From assembly GCF_900107645.1 (NCBI RefSeq), contig NZ_FNQN01000004.1:1-64000 (forward strand): DNA of 64,000 bases, written 5' to 3'. This DNA comes from Desulfuromusa kysingii (GTDB taxonomy: Bacteria > Desulfobacterota > Desulfuromonadia > Desulfuromonadales > Geopsychrobacteraceae). A program made the translations under genes and the position numbers. Shown one piece after another: positions 3,210-57,690 of the stretch (position 1 is the stretch's first letter; each line of letters starts with the position of its first letter). A model generated the notes under the pieces. That model was not told the origin of the DNA. It was given only the letters and a program-made list of their open reading frames with translations, and ran no database searches.

Positions 3210-4838
3210 TTAATTTCCAGCCATGATCGCAGCAACATCTTCTTTGACGTCACCAGTCGCCTTAATATCGAACTTCTCGACCAGCACTTTGGCAACATTT
3301 GGAGACAAGAATGCTGGCAATGTTGGCCCCAGGCGGATGTGTTTGACACCCAGTGCGAGGAGTGCGAGCAGAACGATCACCGCTTTTTGCTCATACCAGG
3401 CGATATCATAGGAAATCGGCAGGTCGTTGATATCATCCAGACCGAAAACTTCCTTCAATTGCAGCGCAATATATGCGAGTGAATAGGAATCGTTACATTG
3501 ACCGGCATCAAGTACCCGTGGAATTCCACCAATATCGCCGAGATCCAGCTTGTTATAACGGAACTTGGCACAACCAGCTGTAAGGATAACGGTATCATCA
3601 GGGAGCTCTTTGGCAACGTCAGTAAAGTAATTCCGGCTGGCTTGACGACCATCACAACCGCCCATGACGACGAAGCGTTTCAGCGCACCGGACTTCACCG
3701 CGTCGACCACTTTATCAGCTAGCGCCATCACCTGAGCATGAGCGAAACCACCAACGATTTCACCTGTTTCAATTTCGACTGGGGGTTCACAGGTTTTAGC
3801 CTTCTCAATAATTTGCGAGAAATCCTTGTGGCCACCTTCAGGACGATCAGCAATATGGATAGCTCCTGGCCAACCAGCCATACCAGTCGTGTAGAAACGA
3901 TCTTTGTAAGCTTCTTTAACCGGGGTAATACAGTTGGTTGTCATCAGAATCGGGCCATTAAATGAAGCAAATTCTTTATCTTGATGCCACCATGAATCAC
4001 CGTAGTTACCAACAAAATGCTCATATTTTTTAAATTCTGGATAATAGTTAGCGGGCAACATTTCACAATGAGTATAAACGTCAACACCAGTGCCTTCAGT
4101 CTGCTTGAGCAGCTCTTCCATATCTTTCAGATCATGTCCGGAGATAAGGATTCCGGGATTTTTACCAACGCCAATATTCACTTTGGTAATTTCAGGATTA
4201 CCATAGGTTGTCGTGTTAGCTTCATCCAGCAATGCCATCGCAGTGACAGCGGTTTCCCCACATTTCATCACCATGCCGACCATTTCATCAACACTCAGAT
4301 CCTGTGTTGTTGACACCAGAGCATCCACCATAAAGTCATAAATTTCGCTCTTCTCAAAACCAAGCATCGCCGCATGATCGGTATAGGCAGCCATCCCCTT
4401 CAGACCGTAAATCAGCAATTCACGTAAGGAGCGAACATCTTCGTTAGGTTGTGACAAGACACCAACTTCTGCAGCTTTAGCAGCAAAATCAGCTTCAGCG
4501 CCATTCCAATTGGCGACATCGGCATCACTACTGAAACCAATCGCAGCTTTCAACCCGTCACGTTTGGCAATGGTGGCCTTAATCAATTCAACAAATCGGG
4601 CATTATCAAAGTTAGCATTGGTAATCGTTGCAAACAGTCCCTGGGAAATAAACAAACCGATCGATTTGTCCAATTTACCCTGCTTTTTAGCTTCGTCAGC
4701 AACAACGGCCAACCCTTTCAGGGTAAAAACCAAAAGATCCTGCAAATTAGCGGTATCCTCTTTTTTTCCACAGACGCCGGCAATAGTGCAGCCAGTATTT
4801 TTAGCCGTTTCCTGACACTGAAAACAAAACATACTCAT
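3210..4838 (-). CDS. hcp: Hybrid-cluster protein (hydroxylamine reductase / prismane protein)
   Basis: Cytoplasmic iron-sulfur protein; family members act as high-affinity NO reductases, reduce hydroxylamine in vitro, and are part of the nitrosative stress response. The N-terminal cysteines are C-X2-C-X8-C-X5-C (residues 5, 8, 17, 23), the class I pattern of strict anaerobes holding a [4Fe-4S] cluster. Ligands of the hybrid Fe-S-O cluster are all visible: SGHDLKD (His), THCEMLPA (Glu), [17 protein letters not shown] and [10 protein letters not shown] (Cys), and WYEQKAV (Glu). The 542-residue length is normal. The ATG at 4838 follows AGGAGT by nine bases. Transcribed divergently from the DUF1858/ABC cluster, with an FNR-like site upstream. 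No hcr-type reductase gene is adjacent. Confidence 0.97.
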
Positions 4839-4918
4839 GTTGGTTGACTCCTTTAGTTTGGGTGATTGGGACGCAATTTCTTTGTGCTGGAAAATGCCAC
4901 AACCGCGACATTAAAAAA

Positions 4919-4932
4919 TTGACGCAAATCAA
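4919..4932 (-). promoter_or_regulatory. FNR/CRP-family site upstream of hcp
   Basis: Read toward hcp the site is TTGATTTGCGTCAA, one base from the perfect FNR/DNR/HcpR-type palindrome TTGAT-N4-ATCAA. Its centre is 87 bp before the hcp start. If it acts at -41.5, transcription would start near 4884; the -10 there (CATTTT) is weak, as expected for an activated promoter. Confidence 0.65.
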
Positions 4933-5083
4933 AAAACAACAAAAATAGTCATGTTTCTTTCAATTGCCATTGAATTTCGAGTATAACAGGCAAACAAAAA
5001 GATGCCAGCATCCCCACTATTTAAATCAACAACCAGACAAAATAATCCCCGCACTCAATTGTTGATGATTTTAGTTATATTTA

Positions 5084-5097
5084 TTGATTTGCATCAA
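5084..5097 (+). promoter_or_regulatory. FNR/CRP-family site upstream of the Hcp-associated cluster
   Basis: TTGATTTGCATCAA, a perfect TTGAT-N4-ATCAA palindrome. A TATGCT -10 lies at 5120-5125, which gives a start near 5132, exactly 41.5 bp from the centre of the site: the geometry of a class II activated promoter. It matches the hcp site in 13 of 14 bases, in the same orientation relative to its gene. Confidence 0.72.
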
Positions 5098-5170
5098 TTT
5101 ATCTTGCGGCACTTTCAGTTATGCTCCGTTCCAGATAATCAATCGACACTCAAAACATGGAGAGACAATA

Positions 5171-6403
5171 ATGACAACGGCCCTACTGAATAAAGATATG
5201 ACGGTTAAGGACGTTCTTGATCGCTGGCCTGAAACCTTGGAAGTGTTTGTTGCCAATGGCTTTGCAAATTTTCGTGATGAGAAACAACGCAACGCTGTCG
5301 GTGCTTTTCTGAAACTGGAACGGGCCGCGCAGACGAAAAAGTATGATCTGGATAATTTTCTGAATCTGTTGCAAGCCAGAATCGATGAGGAGTTGCATCA
5401 GGTTGATGTCACTATGAAGACAACTGAGAAAGCTGACAGTCAGGTCAACGTCTCTGGCCTGCTCCCCTGCCCGGTACGGTTACCACTCCTGGAGGGGTTT
5501 GACGCTTTTATAGAGAAGTATACTGCAGAAACCGGCAATAGTGTCAGCTATAAGTTGGAAGCAGCATCGGTCGGTGCAAGCTGGATCGAAGAGAATATTC
5601 AGGGGATTGAAAACGTCAACGACCTCCCAGATATCTTCCTCTCTGCCGGATTTGAAACCTTCTTTGATCAGAAAACCATCGGTCGGTTCAAAGATCAGAA
5701 GGTCTTTACCGATATCACCGCGACAGCGGTTAATCCTGACTTTGCGGGCATTGATATTAAAGATCCGAAACAGGACTATTCAATTATTGCTGCGGTTCCT
5801 GCGGTATTTATGGTCAATCATGATGTCCTTGGTGATCTACCGATTCCACGCCGCTGGTCTGACTTATTGAAACCTGAATATCAAGAAAAAGTTGCCCTAC
5901 CTGTGGGTGATTTCGACCTGTTTAACGCAATTCTTCTTGCTATTCATAAAGAACATGGGGATGCCGGGGTCAAAAAACTCGGCCGCTGTATGCTCAAGTC
6001 GATGCACCCATCACAGATGGTCAAGAATGCGCAGCGGGTTGCAGAAGAAAAACCCCTGATCACGATCATGCCTTACTTTTTCACTAAAATGGCACGTATG
6101 GTGAAGAGTTTAGAGATCATCTGGCCCGAAGATGGAGCGGTGGTCAGTCCTATTTTTATGCTGACCAAGCGTGATTGTCTAAATAAAGTCAGGCCCATTG
6201 CTGAATTTTTGTCCAGTAAAGCGGTTGGAGAAATTCTGGCACAAAAAGGGTTATTCCCCTCACTGCACCCTGATGTTGACAATCAACTCTCTGGCCAACA
6301 CCCATGGAAGTGGATTGGCTGGGACTACATCTACCAAAATGACATTGGTGCCTTGATTCAGCGCACGACACAAATTTTTGAAGCTTCAATGAACGAACTA
6401 TAA
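5171..6403 (+). CDS. DUF1858 domain fused to a solute-binding-like domain, no signal peptide
   Basis: First gene of a four-gene cluster. Residues about 8-75 (MTVKDVLDRWPETLEVFVANG and on) resemble DUF1858/TIGR03980, the hybrid-cluster-protein-associated redox disulfide domain, but the usual CxxC position reads GFANF with no cysteine. Residues about 95-400 look like a type 2 periplasmic binding protein of the ferric-iron/thiamine/polyamine class (LPCPVRLPLLEGFDAFIEKY, YSIIAAVPAVFMVNHDVLGD, PRRWSDLLKPEYQEKVALP). There is no signal peptide, lipobox or membrane segment, so a cytoplasmic location is likely, which is unusual for this fold. Start chosen at 5171, after GGAGAGAC; an upstream in-frame ATG would overlap the FNR-like site and promoter. 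Role unknown; a ligand- or metal-carrying part of a maturation system is an inference. Confidence 0.85.
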   Translation: MTTALLNKDMTVKDVLDRWPETLEVFVANGFANFRDEKQRNAVGAFLKLERAAQTKKYDLDNFLNLLQARIDEELHQVDVTMKTTEKADSQVNVSGLLPCPVRLPLLEGFDAFIEKYTAETGNSVSYKLEAASVGASWIEENIQGIENVNDLPDIFLSAGFETFFDQKTIGRFKDQKVFTDITATAVNPDFAGIDIKDPKQDYSIIAAVPAVFMVNHDVLGDLPIPRRWSDLLKPEYQEKVALPVGDFDLFNAILLAIHKEHGDAGVKKLGRCMLKSMHPSQMVKNAQRVAEEKPLITIMPYFFTKMARMVKSLEIIWPEDGAVVSPIFMLTKRDCLNKVRPIAEFLSSKAVGEILAQKGLFPSLHPDVDNQLSGQHPWKWIGWDYIYQNDIGALIQRTTQIFEASMNEL

Positions 6404-6413
6404 AGGAATTGAC

Positions 6414-7112
6414 ATGCGTTTTTTAACCATATCCGGTCCCCCATCATCGGGAAAGACATCTGTTATTTTAAGAGTGATTGAAGCGTTGCAAACGCGGCAG
6501 CAGAAGATTGGTGTGGTCAAGTTTGACTGCCTGCTGACAGACGATGACAAGCTCTACGCCAAGAAAGGGGTGCTGGTCAAAAAAGGACTTTCCGGCGCAC
6601 TCTGCCCTGATCACTATTTTGTCAGCAATATCGAATCCTGCGTCACCTGGGGACACGAAAATGGCTGCGAATATCTGATCAGTGAAAGTGCTGGACTCTG
6701 TAATCGTTGTTCGCCACATATCAAAGAGATTACCGCTGTCTGTGTGATCGACAATCTCAGCGGCATCAATACCCCGAAAAAAATTGGGCCGATGTTAAAG
6801 TCAGCCGATATTGTTGTTATTACCAAAGGGGATATCGTCTCCCAAGCAGAACGGGAAGTTTTTGCCTCGCGGGTGAGACAGGTCAACCCCGGAGCCATTA
6901 TTATGAATGTTAACGGAATCACCGGACAGGGCGCCTTTGAGCTGACCAGCCTGTTTGAGGATGCTTCAGATATTGAAACGTTGAAGGGTAAAGTCTTACG
7001 TTTTTCCATGCCTTCAGCGCTCTGCTCCTACTGTCTGGGGGAAACCCGGATCGGTGAAGAGCATCAGACAGGGAACATCCGCAAGATGGATCTCCAGGAA
7101 GGATCAGCCTGA
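6414..7112 (+). CDS. HypB/UreG/CobW-like P-loop GTPase
   Basis: 232-residue cytoplasmic P-loop NTPase. Walker A is GPPSSGKTS (residues 8-16). ESAGLCNRCSPH at about 93-104 carries a CxxC with a following His, a likely metal site. VVITKGDIV (about 136-144) resembles the base-recognition strand of HypB and UreG, and VNGITGQG follows. A C-terminal CSYCLGETRIG segment gives a second CxxC. HypB, UreG and CobW relatives load metals into enzymes or insert metallocofactors. Starts 10 bp after the previous stop with AAAGGA before the ATG, and its stop overlaps the next start by one base, so the genes are almost certainly co-transcribed. The target metalloprotein is unknown; Hcp is the obvious candidate from context. 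Confidence 0.85.
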   Translation: MRFLTISGPPSSGKTSVILRVIEALQTRQQKIGVVKFDCLLTDDDKLYAKKGVLVKKGLSGALCPDHYFVSNIESCVTWGHENGCEYLISESAGLCNRCSPHIKEITAVCVIDNLSGINTPKKIGPMLKSADIVVITKGDIVSQAEREVFASRVRQVNPGAIIMNVNGITGQGAFELTSLFEDASDIETLKGKVLRFSMPSALCSYCLGETRIGEEHQTGNIRKMDLQEGSA

Positions 7113-8110
7113 TGAAAGCCACAACATTATTGTCTCAACCGCTGACAGAAACCTTGGTTGAACATCCCTATATCGAAGATTTTATGACCTCCTTTGGTCT
7201 GGTGATCAAACCTGACAGCAACAGCTTACAACATTATCTTGATCACCTGGATCCTGATGCATTGGAGGATCTTGGCATCAGTAGCGAACAACTACGACAA
7301 AGTCTTGACAGTTTTCTTGCTGGCATGTTGGCGCTATCAGACCCGATGGATAAAGTTGAATCGCTGACAATTGTTGGCGGGGTTGATAAATCGGGAAAAG
7401 CGGAAAATCTGCAATTGACTTTGAAACCTGGCGAAGTCATCTGTATCGTCGGTCCGACTGGATCAGGGAAAAGCCGCCTGCTAGCTGACATTGAGTGGGT
7501 TGCCCAAGGCGACACTCCGACCAAAAGAAAAATTCTCATCAACGATCAGGTGCCTGATAGTAAATGGCGGTTTTCGACCGAGCATAAGTTGGTAGCCCAA
7601 TTGTCACAGAATATGAACTTTGTGATGGATCTGTCAGCGGAAGAATTTATCCGCATGCATGCAGAGAGCCGCTTGGTCACTGACCCGGAAGCAAAAGTTG
7701 CCCAGATCCTGCTACAGGCCAACGAACTGGCCGGAGAGACATTTGCTCCTGATACGCCGGTGACATCTTTAAGCGGCGGGCAATCCCGTGCATTGATGAT
7801 TGCCGATATGGCGATTCTGAGCAAATCACCGATTGCGTTGATTGATGAAATCGAGAACGCCGGAATTGATCGTAAAAAAGCCCTGGAGCTGCTCGTTCAA
7901 GAAGAAAAAATCATCCTCATGGCAACTCACGATCCAATTCTTGCCTTGATGGGCGATCGACGGGTGGTGATTAAAAACGGTGGTATTGAGAAGATTATTG
8001 AGTCGAGTGAAGCAGAACGCAAAAACCTGGTCACTTTGGAGGCCCTCGACAACAAACTACTCGCGCTAAGAAATAGAATCCGAACCGGGGATACCCTGGA
8101 AAATCTCTAA
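7112..8110 (+). CDS. Stand-alone ABC ATPase with an N-terminal DUF1858-like domain
   Basis: 332-residue soluble ATPase with all ABC motifs: Walker A GPTGSGKS (about 113-120), signature LSGGQSR (about 222-228), Walker B ALIDEIENAG (about 244-253) and H-loop ATHD. No permease gene is nearby and the protein has no membrane span, so it is probably not a transporter subunit. The first ~75 residues (LTETLVEHPYIEDFMTSFGL and on) resemble the DUF1858-type helical domain of the first gene in the cluster, again without cysteines, so two proteins share an N-terminal module. Start at 7112 overlaps the GTPase stop (TGATG). A power-stroke or remodelling ATPase in cofactor delivery is an inference. Confidence 0.85.
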   Translation: MKATTLLSQPLTETLVEHPYIEDFMTSFGLVIKPDSNSLQHYLDHLDPDALEDLGISSEQLRQSLDSFLAGMLALSDPMDKVESLTIVGGVDKSGKAENLQLTLKPGEVICIVGPTGSGKSRLLADIEWVAQGDTPTKRKILINDQVPDSKWRFSTEHKLVAQLSQNMNFVMDLSAEEFIRMHAESRLVTDPEAKVAQILLQANELAGETFAPDTPVTSLSGGQSRALMIADMAILSKSPIALIDEIENAGIDRKKALELLVQEEKIILMATHDPILALMGDRRVVIKNGGIEKIIESSEAERKNLVTLEALDNKLLALRNRIRTGDTLENL

Positions 8111-8131
8111 ACCCACAAAAGGGAGACTGAA

Positions 8132-8374
8132 ATGCACGACGGCTGTAGTGGAAGTTTTGGCAATGGTGAGCAAATTGTCAACAAATTAAGGCAGATGGGA
8201 TTCAGCAGTTATGCTATGCCGATACCCATTGAGATTAAATGTACCAGCTGTGAGACAACTTTCACCATGGAAACAATGGAAGACAAGTGTGACAGTTGCG
8301 GCATGACCTATGGTGTCACACCCTGCCATGCAACAGATCCCGGAAGCATCCAACCGGCAGGTATCAACTATTAA
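8132..8374 (+). CDS. Small zinc-ribbon protein of the Hcp-associated cluster
   Basis: 80-residue protein with two CxxC knuckles, CTSC at about 38-41 and CDSC at about 53-56, forming a probable zinc ribbon. A third conserved-looking tail, YGVTPCHATDP, has one more Cys-His pair, and another Cys lies at residue 5. Last gene of the cluster, 21 bp after the ATPase, with GGGAGA before its ATG. Small proteins with a similar ...GVTPC...DP..IQ.AGI tail occur, from memory, in other anaerobes. It may bind metal or nucleic acid, or be a partner of the GTPase; no function is shown. Confidence 0.8.
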   Translation: MHDGCSGSFGNGEQIVNKLRQMGFSSYAMPIPIEIKCTSCETTFTMETMEDKCDSCGMTYGVTPCHATDPGSIQPAGINY

Positions 8375-8381
8375 GTCAATC

Positions 8382-8407
8382 GCGGGCGAACCGCTTCGTT
8401 CGCCCGC
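8382..8407. terminator. Hairpin between converging genes
   Basis: Perfect 10-bp stem GCGGGCGAAC / GTTCGCCCGC with a six-base loop, directly after the zinc-ribbon gene and before the convergent PilZ gene. No clear T-tract on either side, so it may act as a weak terminator or as a 3-prime-end protector. Confidence 0.5.
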
Positions 8408-8441
8408 CTTGAACCACAATCGGGGCTACGACTCAAACTTT

Positions 8442-9092
8442 TCACAACAGCTCCTCGCTGGCAGAGGTAGAAATGTATTGCCATAACACGGCCCGATCAG
8501 CACTCTTCAGCGGGTAAAACTTAATCCCGACGTTATGTTTGGCATGCTGAGCCTCTTTAGCTTTTTCAGTCCAGCAAACCTGTCCGGTGACAAAAATAAC
8601 ACTTTCATCTCCCGGCAGAGAAAATTCCAGCGCGATCTCCTCCCGAACCTTTGGTAACGGGTTTGATCCCGGCACTTCCACCCGTGCACCCTCCATACTT
8701 AAGTTATAAAAGTTACAGCTGCAGGCGTTTTTGCCGTAACAAACTTCGACCCGAAAAGGGGTTGAAAACTGTAATCGAAAGTTGTCCCGAGCTCCGGTCA
8801 TCATCCCTTGCAGAATCGTCAAAAACTGCTTGATGCTCTTCTTGCTTTCAGCCGAGCTACGACCATTTTCCGCCATCGAATTATTCTCGTCAATCACTTC
8901 ATCGAGGAGTTTTCGATAGCGAAAAAAACGTTTCAGCAGATCCTGCCGGTCGAAAGTAAAACCGTTGGATGAAACCAGGACATTATTAACGGCAACTTCA
9001 GCGCCGCAGTGTTCGCATACAATTGTCTGAATTTCTGCCAACAGCGCAGATTTAATATATTTACTGCATTTTGGACATTTCATTATCAACAT
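8442..9092 (-). CDS. Zinc-ribbon and PilZ domain protein
   Basis: 216-residue cytoplasmic protein. The N-terminus has a zinc ribbon (CPKC and CEHC about 17 residues apart, near residues 6-27), followed by a charged helical region. The C-terminal ~110 residues look like a PilZ domain: RDNFRLQFSTPFRVEV gives an R-X3-R-like basic start, then SMEGARVEV (the usual D/NxSxxG motif) and VGIKFYPL. PilZ domains bind cyclic di-GMP. The neighbouring HD-GYP regulator degrades this messenger, so a shared signalling role is plausible. Start at 9092 is chosen because ATG there follows GAGG by six bases; a GTG 36 bp upstream has no ribosome-binding site. The RxxxR motif is imperfect, so c-di-GMP binding is not certain. 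Confidence 0.8.
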   Translation of the reverse strand: MLIMKCPKCSKYIKSALLAEIQTIVCEHCGAEVAVNNVLVSSNGFTFDRQDLLKRFFRYRKLLDEVIDENNSMAENGRSSAESKKSIKQFLTILQGMMTGARDNFRLQFSTPFRVEVCYGKNACSCNFYNLSMEGARVEVPGSNPLPKVREEIALEFSLPGDESVIFVTGQVCWTEKAKEAQHAKHNVGIKFYPLKSADRAVLWQYISTSASEELL

Positions 9093-9156
9093 AACTGAGC
9101 CTCGTATTTGATCTTTAAGACTGTCCACGCTGTCGGCACGAAACGGTCATAACCTA

Positions 9157-10275
9157 TTAATTATGATAGGTTTCTTCATCGAGATAACGTTCTTTAATTT
9201 CAAGAATTTCTGCCAAATTTTCAATGAACAGGTCAACCATGACAGGTTCGAAATGTTTACCCGATTCCGCTTTCAGCAAGGCGATAGTCTTTTCCACCGA
9301 CCACGCTTTCTTATAGGGTCGTTCTGAGGTTAACGCATCAAAAACATCACTGATTGCCGCGATTCTGGCAGAAATAGGGATCTCCTCACCAGAAATTCCC
9401 CGCGGATATCCGCTCCCATCCCACTTTTCATGATGGTAAAGAGCGGTTTCACGAGCAAGAACAATCAACTTGGAATCATTATCACCAATGATCTTGGCCC
9501 CTATTTCTGGATGATGTTGCATGACTTTCCACTCTTCTGGAGAGAGCTTCCCAGGCTTAAGCAAAATACTGTCCGGGATACCAATCTTACCGACATCATG
9601 CATGGTACTGGCATAAAGCAACTGTTCGGCATAATCTTTTCCCAAGCCACGCTTAAGTGCCAAAAGACTGCAAGTGTGACTCATCCGATTGACATGGGCT
9701 CCGGTTTCATTATCGCGTAGTTCGCCGGCGGCTCCCAGACGCTTGACGATCTCAAACTGGGTCGCAAGGATTTCACGCGTCCGTTTACGTACCTCTTGTT
9801 CCAGAATATCAGCACGTACGACCTGACGAGTATAATACAAACGTGTCTGCAGGGTATTTTCGATCCGTAACAGGACTTCCCAATCTTCAAAGGGTTTGGT
9901 AATAAAGTCCTTGGCCCCAGCTTCCAACGCCTGCTGACGGGTTTCTTGATCGGTTTGAGCGGTCAGGACAATGACGGGTAGAAATTCGTCCCGAGTGACC
10001 TCTTTAAGTTGTTGTAAGACCTCAATCCCTGACATTTTCGGCATACGGATATCGAGCAGAAGCAAATCAAAGGTATGTTCCCGATACAAAGAAAGGACCT
10101 GGGTTGGATCCGTGGTAGAGTAAATATTCTCGTATTCTTCTTCGTCTAAAACCGCCTCAAGGAGAGCGACATTTGATGGGTTGTCGTCAACAATCAAAAT
10201 CTTTGCATCGTGTATATCTGCGAGTGCAGAGCCCACAGAGAGATCGGTTAAATCAAGAGCCATGTTCATGTTCAA
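9157..10275 (-). CDS. Response regulator with HD-GYP phosphodiesterase domain
   Basis: 372-residue cytoplasmic regulator. Residues about 24-140 form a receiver domain: KILIVDDNPSN, the phosphoacceptor in LLLLDIRMPKMSG, and KPFEDWEV. After a coiled linker comes an HD-GYP domain (about 175-355) with ETGAHVNRMSH, the metal-binding HD in MHDVGKIGIPD, and HHEKWDGSGYPRG carrying the GYP motif, so it should hydrolyse cyclic di-GMP. Its start overlaps the stop of the hybrid kinase by 4 bp, so the two are co-expressed and the kinase is the likely phosphodonor. RpfG-like architecture. Start ATG near the overlap; MNMNMA gives alternative ATGs two and four codons in. Confidence 0.93.
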   Translation of the reverse strand: MNMNMALDLTDLSVGSALADIHDAKILIVDDNPSNVALLEAVLDEEEYENIYSTTDPTQVLSLYREHTFDLLLLDIRMPKMSGIEVLQQLKEVTRDEFLPVIVLTAQTDQETRQQALEAGAKDFITKPFEDWEVLLRIENTLQTRLYYTRQVVRADILEQEVRKRTREILATQFEIVKRLGAAGELRDNETGAHVNRMSHTCSLLALKRGLGKDYAEQLLYASTMHDVGKIGIPDSILLKPGKLSPEEWKVMQHHPEIGAKIIGDNDSKLIVLARETALYHHEKWDGSGYPRGISGEEIPISARIAAISDVFDALTSERPYKKAWSVEKTIALLKAESGKHFEPVMVDLFIENLAEILEIKERYLDEETYHN

Positions 10276-13200
10276 TCCTTCAAAAGGTCCGTCATCGTTG
10301 TATAGAGTAAATCGACATCAATCGGTTTTGGTATATAGCTATTAAACCCTTGCGTATGGACCCTCTTAATAGTTTTCTCCATAGCATCAGCACTCACAGC
10401 AAGAACCGGAACACTTGTTAATTCAGGGTTTTTCTTTATCCGACGCAGCGCTTGAAAGCCATCGATATCGGGTAAATCAAGATCCATCAGAATCAAGTCT
10501 GGTCGATTTTCTGAGGCCATGGAAACACCCTCTTCGCCAGTAGAAGCCACGACTAAACGTAAGTTTTCTAACTCGAGAAAAAGGTCCTGCATAAAAATAA
10601 TATTGGTTGGATCGTCTTCAACATACAATACCAGCTTCTGCTGTCGGCTGGCGACCGGTGTTGCCTCATTATTGCTGACCTCAAGACTGTTCACCCCTTT
10701 CACGATGAAACTTTCTTGATCCACCGGCAAAGTAAACCAGAAGAGGCTACCTTGATTCAACTCACTCTGAAAACCAATTTCTCCACCCATTTTTTCAACT
10801 AACTGCCTGGTAATCGTCATGCCAATCCCAGTTCCTTCAATCTTGCTGGCATTTTCTACAGCACGAGTAAACGGGACAAACAGATCTTTCTGTTTCTCTT
10901 GCGCAATACCAATGCCGGTATCTTCAATAACAAAACGCAAAAATTCAGGGTTCTCGGTTTCAATGTCTATAGTGACCGTGCCGCTCTCTCGGTTGTATTT
11001 GATCGCATTCGATAGAATATTTAACACAACTTGTTTCATCCGTGTCAGATCGGCCTTCACTAACGGCAGGTCTTTACCTGCATACCGACAGGTCATGGAA
11101 ATCGATTTTTCGTTAGCCATAGCAGCCGTCAGAGATAGACAGTCGTCAATAACAATATGTGGTTCTAGCGACTCTAAAGCGAGGGCAAATTCTCCTGATT
11201 CTATCCGTGCCAAATCAAGAATTTCATTGATCAGTTGCAGCAAGTGTTGACCGGCAGTATGAATCTGCGCCGTCATATTCCGCTGTTTTTCATTTAAAGG
11301 ATTCTTTTTACTCTTCAGCATCAGCTGAGAAAATCCATTAATGGCATTCAACGGCGTCCTTAGTTCGTGACTCATATGAGAGAGAAAGTTGGATTTAGCC
11401 TGATTGGCCATCTCTGCTTGTTCTTGCGCTTTCTTTAATTCGGTAATATTTTCTTTAACGGCAACGAAATGGGTTATCTCTTCCTGAGTGTTTCTTATCG
11501 GAATAACCAACACACTCTCATCATAGAGTTCTCCATTTTTTTTCTTATTGATAAACTCACCCTGCCAAATTTTACCCGCTTTGATCGTTGACCACAGCTG
11601 TTTAAAAAGCAACTTTGGAGTAAAACCCGATTGCAGAATCCGCGGATTCAATCCAACGGCCTCAGCAAAACTGTATCCAGTGATTTCCTCAAAGGCAGGG
11701 TTAACATATTCAATAATCCCATCAACGTCAGTAATAACGACACTACTGGGTGACTGCTCCACCACCATTTTTAATTTACGCGTCTCTTCCTCCGAGACTT
11801 TCCTGATGGTGATATCACGAGAAGAGAGGATATAAGCATCACGACCATCATCCTGTTGAAATTTCTGAATCAGTGATTCTATGACATGGATACTGCCCCT
11901 TCTATCTTTGAGTCGGTACTCCATGGGAACAGACCCTTTATAGGCTTCATATAGGGCAGAGATACCCAGGTGTTTTAAATCTTCGGGGAGAACTAAATCA
12001 CTCACATGCATTCCGACCAATTTCTCCGCCGCGATCCCCAATAGTTTTTCTACCGCAGGACTGGTGTAGAGAATACGACCATCAACATCCAAGATGGTCA
12101 TAATATCGGAAATATTTTCTATCAATCGCCGGAAATGTCTCTCACTCTTAATCAGCGTTAATTGGGCCTTCTTACGTTGTAGAATTTGTTCTTCAAGTTC
12201 CTTGGTCCGTCTTTCAACAGTCTCTTCGAGATGGGTATTGAGTTGTTTTAGAGCTTTTTCGGCGTTCCTTTTTGTGCTGATATCCTGCCGATATTCAATC
12301 ATCTGGATCAGTTTCCCGTCACGATCAAAAACCGGATAGCCGTGCACCTCAATAGCAACCTCTTCACCCTGAAGGTTGATATAACTATGCTCAACAACGA
12401 CAGGAGCTTGCGATTGCTTGACTTGCTGCAAAGCACAAGGAAGACCTGGACCCGTGCAAGGCTTGTCACGATCATGAGTGAGGGCATAGCAGGTTGTACA
12501 GGTGCGATTGGCACTGTTGCGAGCCGCCGAGTTTGCCAGCACGATTGCGTAATTTTCGACATCAATGACATAAAATGGGTGGACCAATGACTCAATAACA
12601 TTGTTGAGAAAATCTGCGTCTTGCTTAATTTGCAGTTGCGCGCTTTTCCGCTCGGATATCTCTTGATTTAATGATGCTGTTCGCTGTTGGACAATCTTTT
12701 CCAGATTCTCGTTGGTATTTTGCAGTTCCTGTTGGTAGCTGTCTCGTTCGTGAAGAATTCTTTTGATCGATCGCAGAACCACCCACCCCATCAGCAAAAT
12801 GAAAGCGACGACACAAAAGGATAAAATGCTTTCAACCCTGGTGTAGGTTTGGCTTAAACGGTTATAAATTCCCTGAATCCGCTCCATTTCTTTTTGACTT
12901 GAAAAGTGGATACGGTTGGAATTCTCCACAATTTGCGAAAAAAGAAGCTCAATACCCTTGAAATAGTCCCTGACCTCGCGATCGGACCCAACAATTTCAA
13001 AAAGATCTCTGTTTTGCAGGATGGCAATCTTCGTTGCCACAACAGCTTTAAAGTTAACAATAATCTGATCGAGATCTTCCAGCTTTGCCTTGAGTTCAAT
13101 TATTTCGCGATCAATACGGAGGTGCCCCACATTGCTATAGTTCAACTTTTTTGAAGCGATTTCTTCATTGCCGAAGTTCACGGTATAGGTCAGGGTCTTT

Positions 13201-13529
13201 TCACCCTCCAATTCGAGCACCGCCAATATATTCAAAATTTCCTTCTGGTAACCATGCAAAAGAGTCAAAACAGTCTCTATCTCAGAAACAGATTCGGCAT
13301 TTGACATCTGGTGAAGTTTAACATCGACTGCTAACAGGTTTTTTTGCAAAAGGTATGAAAGTTCTAATTTCTGCTGCTCATTATTCAACAATAAATGCAG
13401 ATGATCACGACGCTGGTCGAGAAGACTGTGCCCAAACATCTGCACAGCGTAACTGACCAAAAGGAGACAGAGCAGAAGGGTAATCTGAGCAATAATATTG
13501 CGATGGAATAATTTGAGAATATTGCTCAT
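10272..13529 (-). CDS. Membrane hybrid sensor histidine kinase with three PAS domains
   Basis: 1085 residues. Two membrane spans (about 12-33 and 232-252) enclose a ~200-residue periplasmic helical sensor region. A coiled coil leads to PAS domains at about 300-420, 465-570 and 585-700. The first PAS contains CTTCYALTHDRDKPC and a third cysteine cluster GLPCAL, which could bind a metal or redox group. The HisKA domain has the phosphoacceptor His in SHMSHELRTPLNAI (about 715-730), then an HATPase domain with GTGIGMTIT (about 830-945) and a C-terminal receiver (about 965-1083) with LILMDLDLPDIDGF. It probably passes phosphate through its own receiver or straight to the HD-GYP protein encoded 4 bp inside its end. 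The signal is unknown. Confidence 0.93.
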   Translation of the reverse strand: MSNILKLFHRNIIAQITLLLCLLLVSYAVQMFGHSLLDQRRDHLHLLLNNEQQKLELSYLLQKNLLAVDVKLHQMSNAESVSEIETVLTLLHGYQKEILNILAVLELEGEKTLTYTVNFGNEEIASKKLNYSNVGHLRIDREIIELKAKLEDLDQIIVNFKAVVATKIAILQNRDLFEIVGSDREVRDYFKGIELLFSQIVENSNRIHFSSQKEMERIQGIYNRLSQTYTRVESILSFCVVAFILLMGWVVLRSIKRILHERDSYQQELQNTNENLEKIVQQRTASLNQEISERKSAQLQIKQDADFLNNVIESLVHPFYVIDVENYAIVLANSAARNSANRTCTTCYALTHDRDKPCTGPGLPCALQQVKQSQAPVVVEHSYINLQGEEVAIEVHGYPVFDRDGKLIQMIEYRQDISTKRNAEKALKQLNTHLEETVERRTKELEEQILQRKKAQLTLIKSERHFRRLIENISDIMTILDVDGRILYTSPAVEKLLGIAAEKLVGMHVSDLVLPEDLKHLGISALYEAYKGSVPMEYRLKDRRGSIHVIESLIQKFQQDDGRDAYILSSRDITIRKVSEEETRKLKMVVEQSPSSVVITDVDGIIEYVNPAFEEITGYSFAEAVGLNPRILQSGFTPKLLFKQLWSTIKAGKIWQGEFINKKKNGELYDESVLVIPIRNTQEEITHFVAVKENITELKKAQEQAEMANQAKSNFLSHMSHELRTPLNAINGFSQLMLKSKKNPLNEKQRNMTAQIHTAGQHLLQLINEILDLARIESGEFALALESLEPHIVIDDCLSLTAAMANEKSISMTCRYAGKDLPLVKADLTRMKQVVLNILSNAIKYNRESGTVTIDIETENPEFLRFVIEDTGIGIAQEKQKDLFVPFTRAVENASKIEGTGIGMTITRQLVEKMGGEIGFQSELNQGSLFWFTLPVDQESFIVKGVNSLEVSNNEATPVASRQQKLVLYVEDDPTNIIFMQDLFLELENLRLVVASTGEEGVSMASENRPDLILMDLDLPDIDGFQALRRIKKNPELTSVPVLAVSADAMEKTIKRVHTQGFNSYIPKPIDVDLLYTTMTDLLKD

Positions 13530-14250
13530 TAACCTAAAAATCCATATTTACGGAAAACATTCTGACCAAAATCTAAGCTAGCCAACGGAAAAAACTTGCA
13601 GCCTAAATCATGATTTTACCTAAGATTGAAACTCTTCATGACCAAGGGTTATTTCTGACTGAATTCTGCTCCGAGCAAAATAAAGTCCATCATCTCATCA
13701 TAAACACCAGTCTTAACGACAATATTCTCGCTCTCCCAACTCACAGCTACGACTTCAGCGAAACCAATAACATTTTAAACGTCAGAGCAAGATTGAACAT
13801 TGCCACAATCATTGTCATGTCACTAGAAATAAAAATAGTGGAATTATCCTCATCTTCTGCTTCTAAATCTGCGTGCAAGTCACAGGCGCACAAAAAAAGA
13901 GGCTAAATGAAACCAATGAAAATTTTCATCTACCCCCCTTTTTCATTATTAGATATTATCAATTAATAATATGTCATACAATAAGATATTGCAAGTGTAA
14001 TGATCAATAAAAGATGAGCGAACAAAAACATACCACACAATAACCGTCAAGATGCTTCCGGACAAACACAGTCTGAGGATGTCACGATCAATCAGGGCCG
14101 AAAATACGCTAGTGAAAGGATAGAGAAACTGGACAATTTCATGAGATTTGGACATCCATTATTTTATCGATGGGGACGAACAAGACAACTCTATGGGGAA
14201 ATAGAGAGAGAAACGGACTTTAGATTGGGGCCATGACAACTTATGAAAAA
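13530..14250. other. AT-rich intergenic region with no credible gene
   Basis: About 720 bp between the kinase start and the rplI terminator. Short frames exist on both strands (for example 13610-13906 on plus and 13949-14155 on minus) but none has a good ribosome-binding site or a recognisable product. In relatives this side of rplI often carries dnaB; it is absent here. The 13950-14000 stretch is very AT-rich (TTATCAATTAATAATATG) and could hold promoters. Confidence 0.5.
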
Positions 14251-14254
14251 ATGT

Positions 14255-14290
14255 AAATAGGACGACAGATTCGACTCTATCGTCCTATTT
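14255..14290 (-). terminator. Rho-independent terminator of the rpsF-rplI operon
   Basis: AAATAGGACGA pairs with TCGTCCTATTT (11 bp) around a loop with a further AGA/TCT pair. T-rich sequence follows on the minus strand, so it can end transcription from rplI; a shorter T-run follows on plus as well. Confidence 0.75.
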
Positions 14291-14321
14291 TTGTCCCACA
14301 AAACATAAAAACTATGTAAAT

Positions 14322-14780
14322 CTATGCTTCTTCTTCAGCAATAACAGTGACTTTCAATTCAGCAACAACACCAACATCTAACTTAACTGAAACAATATGT
14401 TCACCAAGAGACTTGATGGCTTCACCAAGTTGAATTTTCTTTCGATCAATATCGACACCGGCGTCTTTGAGCTTAGCTTCGAGATCCATAGAAGTCACCG
14501 AACCAAACAACTTACCTTCTTCACTGGCACGTTGAGTAAATTCACAACTAACTTTTTCAATCCGAGCCTTGATGCCTTCAGCATCCTTGGTCGCTTTTTC
14601 AAGTTTACGAGCTAATTGACGTTTCTGATGATCTAGCTCTTTGACATTTTTTTCATTGGCCGCGCTGGCCAAACCTTTGGGGATCAAGTAATTTCTGGCA
14701 TAACCAGCCTTGACCGACACCACATCACCGATGATCCCAAGACCATCGATATTCTCTTTTAAAATAATGTTGTTATTCAT
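14322..14780 (-). CDS. rplI: 50S ribosomal protein L9
   Basis: 152-residue structural protein of the large ribosomal subunit. It binds 23S rRNA near the L1 stalk with its N-terminal domain, which is joined by a long helix to a C-terminal domain. The N-terminus MNNNIILKENIDGLG and GYARNYLIPKGLA are the L9 signature. Start chosen at 14780, where ATG follows GGAGAGAC; the frame extends 28 codons further up into the preceding gene without support. Last gene of the rpsF-rpsR-DUF2232-rplI group and followed by a terminator. Confidence 0.97.
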   Translation of the reverse strand: MNNNIILKENIDGLGIIGDVVSVKAGYARNYLIPKGLASAANEKNVKELDHQKRQLARKLEKATKDAEGIKARIEKVSCEFTQRASEEGKLFGSVTSMDLEAKLKDAGVDIDRKKIQLGEAIKSLGEHIVSVKLDVGVVAELKVTVIAEEEA

Positions 14781-14805
14781 GTCTCTCCTCCGTATTGGAT
14801 CGAGT

Positions 14806-15735
14806 TTATATGTTCTTTTGTCTGGGGCGGCGAAAATCAATCCACAGATCAAAGACACCGGCACAGGTAATAATTATTGGTAATGGGTTCAATATCAACA
14901 AAAGAAAATAGATCAGCCCTTTTACCAGAGGTGGATAAGTTTTTTTCTGTAAAAAACTGTTCACGACTGCCATCCCCTGTAAAAAGTACAGGGGTAACAA
15001 GACCACCAACAGATTTCTACCAATCAGCGATACGGCCTCAAGCGGCAGTAGCAAGAAAAAACCTGCGACAATCAGCACCCAGATCAACCCAGGTGGCAAA
15101 CGCCAACGTGAAAACGCTATTCCCGCAATATGGTAATGCTGCCCTTTTAACCGCTGTAACAACAACAAGCATAAGGACTGAATTGCCAGCAACGATGCAA
15201 AATAGAGCCCATAGAAGTTCTTGCCGATAAAATCACTCAGACCATCGACAACTTGTTGCATATTTTGCAGTTGGTCATCACTGAAGCCACTAGCGCGATA
15301 AACTTGCATAGCCTGATCAACTTCGGATTGCAGCATTTGATCAATCAGGGTCTGAAGGTTGACTCCACTAACGAGGACAGTGAACAGGATCATTAATGCC
15401 GTAGCGACTGCCGATCCTGCCGTTGCATACAAAACTGACCGATCCCAAGACCGCTGCTGGCGTAAAAAAAAGGGCAGTAATAGCGAACCAACACCAAAAA
15501 CTCCTAAATAGGCAGCCAAAGTGTAAGTTGTTGCCAATTGTAGCAATAATGCGCTGGTAACAATAACGATGACTAAACTTGAGCGTAAACCAAAACGCAT
15601 ACCCAAGTATGCTGCAGCAAGGGGAGTTAAGAGATTCAGAAACCCACCGGCCGGACCTATCCAACTGACCCCAAGTAAGCAGATCAGAGTGGCTCCGATA
15701 CCAACTACAGTATAAAGTGCCGACTGCCCTTTCAT
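14806..15735 (-). CDS. DUF2232 (YybS-like) membrane protein
   Basis: 309-residue integral membrane protein with about eight hydrophobic segments (for example GIGATLICLLGVSWIGPAGG near the N-terminus and LVKGLIYFLLLILNPLPIII near the C-terminus). Proteins of the DUF2232/YybS family are commonly encoded between rpsR and rplI in Firmicutes and Desulfuromonadia, exactly as here. The biochemical role is not established; some members resemble small-molecule transport components. It starts 23 bp after rpsR and ends 25 bp before rplI, so it is probably translated from the same mRNA as the ribosomal proteins. Confidence 0.85.
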   Translation of the reverse strand: MKGQSALYTVVGIGATLICLLGVSWIGPAGGFLNLLTPLAAAYLGMRFGLRSSLVIVIVTSALLLQLATTYTLAAYLGVFGVGSLLLPFFLRQQRSWDRSVLYATAGSAVATALMILFTVLVSGVNLQTLIDQMLQSEVDQAMQVYRASGFSDDQLQNMQQVVDGLSDFIGKNFYGLYFASLLAIQSLCLLLLQRLKGQHYHIAGIAFSRWRLPPGLIWVLIVAGFFLLLPLEAVSLIGRNLLVVLLPLYFLQGMAVVNSFLQKKTYPPLVKGLIYFLLLILNPLPIIITCAGVFDLWIDFRRPRQKNI

Positions 15736-15758
15736 CTTTATATCAACAAAACCTCACC

Positions 15759-16028
15759 TTAAAGAGAGTGCGATGACGTATAGGGTAACAGTGCAACCTG
15801 CCGAGCATTTTTAATCGCTTCCGCAATTTGTCGCTGGTGCGCAGCGCAGGTCCCGGAAATACGTCGAGGAACGATTTTACCGCGTTCTGACAAGTAATAT
15901 TTCAAGTTATTAACATCTTTGTAGTCGATCGTCTGTTTTTTATCTGCACAATAGCGACAAACTTTACGTCTGCCAAAGCGACGCCGTGGTGGTGCCGATG
16001 ATGGACGAGATGGTCTTTCATAAGCCAT
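15759..16028 (-). CDS. rpsR: 30S ribosomal protein S18
   Basis: 89-residue protein of the small subunit that sits next to S6 on 16S rRNA. It has the basic core [20 protein letters not shown] and a CRYC pair near residue 24, with a third Cys in SGTCAAH, so it is the cysteine-containing form that may bind zinc. The serine/proline/arginine-rich N-terminus is normal for the group. ATG at 16028 follows AGGAGAATG-type Shine-Dalgarno sequence. It lies 62 bp downstream of rpsF. Confidence 0.97.
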
Positions 16029-16090
16029 AAATCATTCTCCTAAGTTGTCATCATCCGGAAGGTTCTGGACGGTGACCTGATAATTGTTAT

Positions 16091-16507
16091 TTATTTTTCT
16101 TCGCTGATCTCTACGACTTCGGTCACGACTTCGGTCACGACTTCGGTCACGACTTCGGTCTCTTCAGTAGCAGTCTCTGTTGCCTCAACAACGGGTTCAG
16201 CTTCAACCACAGCAGGAAATTCACCTTCAAATCGAACCGTCAAAAACCGGAGGATTTGTTCATCGAGACGCAGACGTCGCTCAAATTCAGCGATAACTTT
16301 TGGCTCAGCAGAGAAGAGGGTCTGAACATAGTTGCCACGTTCAACCTTTTTAATCGGGTACGCTAGCTTCCGTGTTCCCCAGTTATCAACCTTGTTAATT
16401 TCAGCGGACTGATCTGTAAGTGCCGCCTTGAATTTTTCCACCTTAGCTGTCAGCTCTTCGCCAACGACATCAGGATGGATGATGTAGAGTGATTCGTAAT
16501 TTCTCAT
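16091..16507 (-). CDS. rpsF: 30S ribosomal protein S6 with repeated acidic tail
   Basis: 138-residue small-subunit protein that pairs with S18. The core starts MRNYESLYIIHPDVVGEELT and holds the conserved NWGTRKLAYPIKK and GNYVQTLF. After about residue 95 comes a long acidic tail containing four exact TEVV units encoded by a 12-bp tandem DNA repeat (16113-16160). S6 tails are acidic in many bacteria and in E. coli are lengthened by RimK with glutamates; here the acidic tail is genome-encoded. Start at 16507 is the ATG after AAAGGAG; a longer frame upstream reads through the 5-prime untranslated region. Confidence 0.95.
   Translation of the reverse strand: MRNYESLYIIHPDVVGEELTAKVEKFKAALTDQSAEINKVDNWGTRKLAYPIKKVERGNYVQTLFSAEPKVIAEFERRLRLDEQILRFLTVRFEGEFPAVVEAEPVVEATETATEETEVVTEVVTEVVTEVVEISEEK
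16113..16160. repeat. 12-bp tandem repeat, four exact units, inside rpsF
   Basis: ACGACTTCGGTC repeated four times without a mismatch, in frame (12 bp = 4 codons), encoding (TEVV)4 in the S6 tail. Such a perfect array may vary in number between strains by slippage. Confidence 0.95.
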
Positions 16508-16737
16508 CAATGGAACTCCTTTAGGATTAGCAGCCCCGGAACAACCCGGAGCAAGGATATGCTCAATCCCCCATGGAATTGAGCGAAACAATGGTTTCTA
16601 TCATAGTCTAATGTTTGGTTCAAGTCTTTTCCCCAGAGCAACTGGAGATGAAACGAATATACGTAAAGATCGAATCGATCCTTCTACCGTGATGGAGAGC
16701 ACCAAATTCATACCACTAAAGCCGCTATCAACCCGGA

Positions 16738-17832
16738 CTAAACGTTAAACCGAAAATGCATAACATCACCATCAACGACGCGGTATTCTTTTCCCTCAAG
16801 TCGCAGCAGGCCTTTCTCTTTAGCGCCGGCTTCACCACCAGAGGAAACATAATCATCATAGGCGATAACTTCTGCGCGGATAAATCCTTTTTCAAAATCG
16901 GTATGAATGACTCCAGCAGCCTGAGGAGCGAGGGCACCATCGGTCACGGTCCATGCACGAACCTCTTTGGGGCCCGCAGTGAAGTACGTAATCAAGCCTA
17001 GCAAGCGGTAACCGGCATGGATCATCCGTTCAAGTCCAGCTTCCTCAAGACCCAATTCCTGCAAAAATTCTTTTTTTTCTTCACTGTCCAGTTCGGCGAC
17101 TTCGGACTCTATCTTGCCACAGATGGTGACCATTTCAGCCCCTTCGGACAGGGCATGGTCTCGTACTTTCTGGACAAAAGGATGGGAGCCACCAAGATCA
17201 TCCTCGGCAACATTAGCGACATAGAGAACTGGCTTCATTGTAATCAAGTGAACACCTGAGATCGCACTTAGTTCTTCTGCGTCAAGAGAGACAGCGCGCG
17301 CGGGCAGACCGTCATTGAGCGCAGTCGCTAATTTTTCCAGAACCCGAAGTTCTGCCTGTAACTGCTTATCACCACCCCGAACAAGCTTCTGACTACGAAG
17401 AATCCTCTTGTCGATACTGTCTAAATCGGCAAGGTTCAATTCTGTCTGGATCACCTCAATATCCCGGACAGGATCAACATTGCCATCGACATGAACCACA
17501 TTTTCGTCTTCGAAACAACGAACAATATGGGCAATAGCATCGACCTGACGGATATGACCGAGAAACTGATTACCCAATCCTTCGCCCTGGCTGGCGCCAC
17601 GAACCAATCCAGCAATATCTACAAATTCCATCGCCGTCGGCAGAATATCTTTGGGATGGACGAGACTGGCGAGAACTTCCATGCGCGAATCAGGGACCGA
17701 AACGACACCAACATTTGGTTCAATGGTGCAAAAAGGGTAGTTCGCTGACTCTGCCCCTGCCGAAGTAATAGCATTAAAGATAGTTGATTTCCCAACATTA
17801 GGAAGGCCGACTATTCCACACTTAAAACCCAT
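16738..17832 (-). CDS. ychF: Redox-regulated ATPase of the Obg family (YchF/OLA1)
   Basis: 364-residue cytoplasmic P-loop protein of the TRAFAC class. It binds ribosomes and prefers ATP to GTP because its G4 motif is altered. G1 is [15 protein letters not shown] (residues 8-22), G3 is [17 protein letters not shown], and the variant G4 region is around [12 protein letters not shown]. The C-terminal TGS-like domain contains [15 protein letters not shown] and the conserved [12 protein letters not shown]. Full family length. It lies between hppA and rpsF in the same orientation; pth-ychF neighbours are common. Confidence 0.96.
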
Positions 17833-57433: not shown

Positions 57434-57690
57434 GCAGAAATGCTGGTTTCTGGAGATTACTTGGTCTGGAAAATCTTGCTATGACGGGGACTTGGCTCTA
57501 ATGATAAGTGAAAAACGGAAAGTTATCTGAAAGTTGACAGCTATCAACTTGTTTTTTGGTCAAAAACATTCAGAATAACTCTCAAAAAATGAAGAACAAA
57601 GATCGTCGTCTTTGCGGCAGAACCCCGCAGAATTCCACTACATTACTCCCCTATCAGGGGCTCAAGATCACAGTGGTATCCGCCTCTCAT

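Follow-up and report, generated by a model that had tools for sequence, protein, structure and literature searches.

A conserved gene cassette beside hcp in Desulfuromusa kysingii: a candidate cytosolic machine for metal handling under nitrosative stress

The hcp locus of Desulfuromusa kysingii

The sequence analyzed here, a stretch of 64,000 nucleotides from the D. kysingii genome (hereafter the window), encodes a class I hybrid cluster protein (hcp, 3210–4838, minus strand; TIGR01703, 753 bits against a cut-off of 360.8), which exhibits an N-terminal CX2CX8CX5C motif and whose hybrid-cluster Cys motifs we read as retained. The search of the D. kysingii genome itself revealed only 1 hcp, the copy in the window. 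Divergently from it, the plus strand carries a tightly packed cassette (5171–8374), comprising the genes of a 410-aa DUF1858-SBP_bac_6 protein (henceforth SBP, 5171–6403; DUF1858, 60 bits against a cut-off of 32.2; SBP_bac_6, 275 bits), a 232-aa UreG/HypB-like GTPase with a TKGD motif (6414–7112; PF02492, 51.1 bits against a gathering cut-off of 20.7), a 332-aa soluble ABC ATPase (7112–8110; ABC_tran, 63 bits against a cut-off of 25), whose gene overlaps that of the GTPase by 1 base, and a small, weakly HypA-like zinc-ribbon protein of 80 aa (8132–8374; below cut-off). The coordinates and content that a previous sequence-only reading had given for these four packed genes divergent from hcp proved right, and the same order was found in dozens of loci from many phyla. 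The ATG start of SBP at 5171 is preceded by GGAG; an alternative in-frame TTG start further upstream would overlap a promoter box. On the other side, the cassette is adjoined across the genus by a gene for a PilZ protein with an N-terminal zinc-ribbon-like stretch (8442–9128 in the window, minus strand), which is probably unrelated to it.

The promoter region shared by hcp and the cassette contains two HcpR/FNR-type boxes, TTGACGCAAATCAA on the hcp side (4919–4932) and TTGATTTGCATCAA 87 bases upstream of the SBP start (5084–5097). Both are half-site variants of the TTGAC-N4-GTCAA-type upstream box that defines the HcpR regulon, and HcpR is predicted to bind them. Two TTGAY-N4-RTCAA boxes, one per side, were present in 13/13 of the divergent hcp-SBP intergenic regions examined. 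The window has two more matches to this pattern, at 57534–57547 and, inside hcp, at 3498–3511 (0.6 expected in the window).

Domain analysis of the cassette proteins

The DUF1858 domain of SBP (residues 7–63, 5189–5359, plus strand; Pfam PF08984, 60 bits) is free of cysteines and opens the protein in the aligned rows, with no signal peptide, as had been claimed. The earlier assignment of this domain to DUF1858/TIGR03980 held only for its first half: the TIGR03980 score is 22.3 bits, with 44.95 needed, and the redox cysteines are absent, so the domain is DUF1858 and not TIGR03980. The model of SBP (pLDDT 86) has its nearest solved folds in the ferric-binding proteins FbpA, FutA1 and cFbpA (TM about 0.5–0.7). 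The iron-binding tyrosine pair of 1y4t aligns with Phe303-Phe304 of SBP, and since the paired tyrosines are thus lost, Fe3+ binding in the manner of FbpA was ruled out. Alignment of the family revealed instead an invariant or near-invariant Cys100-Pro and His279.

The GTPase scores far below the cut-offs of the curated families HypB (TIGR00073, 47.5 bits against 121.2) and UreG (TIGR00101, 29.6 bits against 204.2). Its invariant residues include C64-P-D-H67, C96xxC99 and C204xxC207; the CPDH motif, invariant in 33 sequences, aligns with the CPH motif of UreG with the spacing off by one. The CPH motif of UreG binds metal. The description of the protein as a HypB/UreG-like GTPase agrees with the PF02492 match, and that of metal-type residues with the two invariant CxxC pairs and the UreG-like CPxH.

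In the ABC ATPase, the Walker A, LSGGQ, Walker B and H-loop motifs are all intact, and its model (pLDDT 87) presents an ordinary nucleotide-binding domain with an additional N-domain. Profile-profile comparison matched its N-terminal ~75 residues to the DUF1858 region of SBP (E 2.2e-5, probability 76%), and the order and pattern of helices in the AlphaFold models are similar in the N-domain of the ABC protein (residues 1–76) and the DUF1858 domain of SBP; therefore both proteins share a DUF1858-like N-domain, as was noticed earlier. No permease is present within the type I operons examined (defined below), in agreement with the previous observation that the cassette lacks one, and these operons do not show the exported SBP and membrane permease of a classical ABC importer.

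The fourth protein is, as proposed, a zinc ribbon rich in cysteines, with an invariant HxGC near the N-terminus, CxxC...CxxC and C65, while H66 is nearly always present. It falls below the HypA cut-offs of both PF01155 (17.9/28.9 bits) and TIGR00100 (16.8/88.1 bits).

Conservation and two clades of the family

The search with the ABC protein identified at least 555 relatives, the best 80 of which were examined. The order SBP, GTPase, ABC is kept in nearly all complete loci, and this trio across at least 7 phyla; the GTPase and the ABC ATPase remain paired even where SBP has been exchanged. The recurrence of this gene order is far above chance, and the shared order across phyla upholds the idea that the four genes form one conserved unit. 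Several of the counts given below were tallied by hand from result tables and then tested statistically.

Neighboring genes were clustered and named, and the loci were sorted by context. Type I loci are accompanied by hcp, YgbA_NO (PF11756), Rrf2 regulators or an HcpR/FNR-type box, and mostly possess the zinc ribbon. Type II loci, which have no zinc ribbon, neighbor ModA/B/C, ModE, ModD, FecCD and Peripla_BP_2 importers or nifH, nifD, nifB, nifV and anfK. The GTPase tree, built from 86 rows, places all 53 that have a type I context on one side of a single branch (support 91/86, present in 96% of bootstrap trees) and the 19 with a molybdenum- or metal-import context on the opposite side; some rows outside the type I side have no assigned context, two of them from Pseudomonadota. 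On the tree, type I comprises Desulfuromonadota, Deferribacterota, Acidobacteriota, Spirochaetota, Cloacimonadota and Fermentibacterota, including five Deferribacteres with no detected zinc ribbon that were classed by context and tree. By neighborhood, type I occurs also in Clostridia, where some type calls were made from score and neighbors only, for sequences outside the tree. Type II was found in Desulfuromonadota, Bacillota, Bacteroidota and Spirochaetota. Both types of SBP have Cys100 and His279 in common.

Association of type I with hcp and nitric oxide

The hybrid cluster protein is a nitric-oxide-reducing enzyme. Its gene adjoins type I cassettes in four phyla and three gene orders: in Desulfuromusa and its relatives the two are divergent; Cloacimonadota, Spirochaetales, Clostridia and some Geobacter have hcp downstream of the cassette in the same orientation, and in 2.8-Mb single-contig spirochaetes hcp comes upstream of it, again on the same strand. 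The Cloacimonadota row reads Rrf2, cupin, SBP, GTPase, ABC, zinc ribbon, OsmC (in some) and hcp, and one Clostridia genome has a CRP/FNR-type regulator followed by SBP, GTPase, ABC, zinc ribbon and hcp. In the Spirochaetota sample hcp is present in 72 of 247 genomes, among them 12 of the 13 with the GTPase family (p 2e-6); of the nine type I genomes there, seven have hcp adjacent, one has it elsewhere and one has none.

Among Desulfuromonadales, 18 of the 31 type I copies compared lie at most 7 kb from an hcp. Type I shows no significant association with the presence of any hcp there (p 0.33), where hcp is nearly universal. The tree of 80 Hcp proteins from Desulfuromonadales separates two lineages, about 50% identical, of which the one close to the Hcp of the window accompanies type I, even where the loci are unlinked on the chromosome, and the other is found with genomes lacking the cassette. 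Type I and the former lineage occur together in 29 genomes, type I only in 7, the lineage only in 7 and neither in 93 (p 1e-16), figures which shared ancestry and co-transfer inflate. Of the 7 type I-only genomes, 6 are MAGs in which hcp is fragmentary or absent, and the seventh (G036) is near-complete and has type I and no Hcp of the matching lineage; at one further exceptional locus (L055) the linked hcp belongs to the other lineage. No distinct N-terminal cluster motif was found in the cassette-linked lineage, and the differences between the lineages are spread over many positions.

The HcpR/FNR-type box precedes 29 of 31 type I operons (Desulfuromonadota, Deferribacterota and Acidobacteriota), compared with 1.8% of background windows and 0/19 of type II operons. 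Its type I consensus agrees with the published HcpR motif of Geobacter/Desulfuromonas, TTGACnnnnGTCAA (PMC1274295). The NO-linked neighbors of type I are YgbA_NO, Rrf2 and CRP/FNR. A YgbA_NO gene lies beside the cassette in Deferribacteres and some Desulfuromonas (downstream of it, in L056–L068 and L074); ygbA of E. coli is regulated by NsrR and induced by NO (PMC5320621).

The link of type I with Hcp and NO is thus well supported, and the pairing with hcp suggested by the sequence-only reading is supported by the adjacency in several phyla together with the NO-type regulation. A system serving Hcp alone is not supported, given the sister set found with molybdenum uptake and nitrogenase and type I genomes with no detected hcp. 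Six such genomes (G138, G140, G143, G178, G179 and G276) are drafts, in which the absence of hcp may reflect incompleteness; several Clostridia possess the trio with no hcp nearby. Homologs without hcp, named beforehand as evidence against the association, do occur in type II lineages and some Clostridia, but not in most of the window's clade. Since the majority of hcp-bearing genomes lack the cassette, Hcp in general does not need it, and a universal Hcp maturase was ruled out on this ground and by the p value of 0.33 cited above. Class I hcp has been described as a gene that often stands alone and has no known partner (PMC10210160), therefore its linkage with the cassette is, as far as we searched, new to the literature.

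Type II loci, nitrogenase and metal import

In Desulfuromonadales nifD is present in 16 of 18 genomes with type II and in 61 of 118 without it (p 0.002), and nine type II genomes have it on the contig of the trio, no more than about 13 kb away. In several loci (L069, L076, L080, L081, L089 and L097, near 8000–17000) the trio is embedded in ModABC/ModE/ModD and nitrogenase clusters. In Pelosinus it is located between anfK/nifB/nifV and modCBA, and one Clostridia genome combines it with nitrogenase-like genes and a FecCD importer. We regard the type II trio as a candidate for the cytosolic handling of molybdenum on behalf of nitrogenase. It is not a general requirement of this enzyme, since the D. 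kysingii genome has nifD (G000:C8:130575–131963) and no type II trio.

Other members of the family display further arrangements. Four loci (L230:7076–12577 and L232–L234) comprise a GTPase-ABC pair, a divergent SBP, a FecCD/Peripla_BP_2 importer and a small methyltransferase; the first has, in addition, nitrogenase-like genes. In Fusobacterium vincentii the trio (L127:7823–16113), which the tree places with type I, directly precedes DUF6162, three ZnuA-like genes and an ABC-3 permease; the database record labels this chromosome-sized 2.1-Mb molecule a plasmid. A Desulfobacteraceae MAG (L072:1707–11538) carries two incomplete cassettes in tandem with genes of NitT/TauT-type transporters (SsuA-like SBP, SaoP-like permease), the SBP lacking the Cys100 motif. 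Clade B CODH with NitT/TauT transporters (PMC6344411) was considered as a possible parallel. Judging by the neighbors of type II and of the Clostridia, Pelosinus and Fusobacterium members, what unites the family is metal import and metallocluster enzymes.

Predicted function and alternatives

We propose, at roughly even odds (about 0.5), that the cassette is a cytosolic, nucleotide-driven machine handling a metal or metal complex in support of Hcp under nitrosative stress. Its observed basis consists of conservation, gene linkage with hcp, the shared promoter boxes, metal-type residues and the predicted folds; the signs of metal in the family are the conserved Cys and His residues, the ferric-binding-like fold of SBP and relatives beside ModABC, FecCD, ZnuABC and nitrogenase. 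From these we infer the identity of the ligand, a physical complex, the order of steps and Hcp as the client. DUF1858-SBP would hold a metal species in its cleft, possibly by way of Cys100 and His279; the UreG/HypB-like GTPase would take the metal on its CPDH and CxxC sites and free it upon GTP hydrolysis; the ABC ATPase might dock through its own DUF1858-like domain and drive opening or handover, and the HypA-like zinc ribbon could be the adaptor to Hcp. The outcome would be that metal of the iron-sulfur-oxygen cluster of Hcp is supplied or restored where NO would strip it, i.e. the hybrid cluster would be assembled or repaired in the presence of NO, and type II sets may play an equivalent part for nitrogenase and molybdenum. 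Of the cytosolic Hcp/NO-stress machine postulated earlier, the link to Hcp and NO regulation and the metal-type residues stand; service to Hcp only is not supported, and the building, loading or repair of its cluster is a proposal. A broader generalization, which we put forward tentatively, is that SBP, ABC and GTPase form a "transporter without a membrane" that loads or repairs complex clusters, that of Hcp in type I and that of nitrogenase in type II (possibly the molybdenum delivery attributed to NifQ).

Or could the cassette be a general rescue system, which recaptures or redistributes metal from NO-damaged proteins (e.g. dinitrosyl-iron complexes) for many clients, with Hcp a mere neighbor in the regulon? 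Type I genomes with no detected hcp, the presence of YgbA in place of hcp beside type I in Deferribacteres and some Desulfuromonas, and the NO-type regulation in common agree with such a role, which we nevertheless consider rather unlikely in view of the recurrent adjacency of hcp in four phyla and three orders and of the co-occurrence of type I with one Hcp lineage, which extends to unlinked loci. More doubtful is a non-metal ligand, such as a nitroso-thiol, polyamine, sugar phosphate or homocitrate, bound by SBP, its level being signaled or the molecule delivered by the GTPase and the ABC ATPase: relatives in SBP_bac_6 do bind varied ligands (AfuA sugar phosphates, P5PA PLP) and the iron tyrosines of SBP are lost, but the strict conservation of Cys and His in the GTPase, SBP and zinc ribbon and the metal importers beside relatives argue against it.

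The neighborhood of type II (ModA/B/C, ModE, ModD, nitrogenase) and the identical Cys100 and His279 of both SBP types might suggest that both clades handle molybdenum or another oxyanion, type I on behalf of molybdoenzymes co-induced with hcp. We regard this as improbable: 18 of the 38 type I genomes lack moaC, including five single-contig spirochaetes and five Cloacimonadota drafts, so type I occurs without molybdenum-cofactor synthesis and its cargo need not be molybdenum, which weakens the case for this metal; nor does type I go with nifD in Desulfuromonadales (counts 15/21/62/38). Least probable is a classical ABC importer with its permease encoded elsewhere and the GTPase a bystander. SBP and the ABC ATPase do belong to importer families, yet SBP begins with DUF1858 and not with a signal peptide, the type I operons examined have no permease, and it is the GTPase that stays with the ABC ATPase where SBP is exchanged. 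A role in anti-phage defense was rejected, as the PADLOC matches were generic ATPases only.

Returning to metal handling in support of Hcp, no description of how the hybrid cluster is made or restored was met in the literature examined, and a partner cassette kept across phyla opens this question to direct testing. Given the sister sets next to Mod and nif genes, a single type of machine may stand behind two hard metallocluster problems, in a family spread through environmental anaerobes and present also in Fusobacterium.

Comparison with known systems

As a gene partner of hcp, the cassette is comparable to Hcr, the reductase of class II Hcp; however, Hcr is a flavoenzyme, whereas the cassette has no obvious redox cofactor domain. 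Type II sets lie inside Mod and nif clusters as do the NifQ/Mod systems of nitrogenase, with no sequence relation claimed. FbpA, FutA1 and cFbpA are the closest solved folds to SBP, which differs in being cytosolic, bearing DUF1858 and having Cys100 and His279 instead of the iron tyrosines. Its N-domain is DUF1858 by Pfam, with 2fi0 as a solved relative, and unlike TIGR03980 it lacks redox cysteines and scores under that cut-off.

The GTPase shares with UreG and HypB, its top PDB sequence matches apart from those to the RecA P-loop, the P-loop GTPase fold, a similar size and CPDH opposite the CPH of UreG, but it lies far under both curated cut-offs, has extra invariant CxxC pairs, adjoins no nickel enzyme and has SBP and an ABC ATPase as partners. 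Likewise, the fourth protein resembles HypA in its small size, its zinc ribbon and a His close to the N-terminus, while it is shorter, with an invariant HxGC, M1 not always present and an additional C65-H66. No curated family or publication describing the gene combination was found in the open-access literature, which agrees with the sequence-only reading that no such system had been described. Judged by its sequences, which fall outside HypB, UreG, HypA, ABC importers and ferric-binding proteins alike, the architecture appears to be new, and the system may still work like a metallochaperone.
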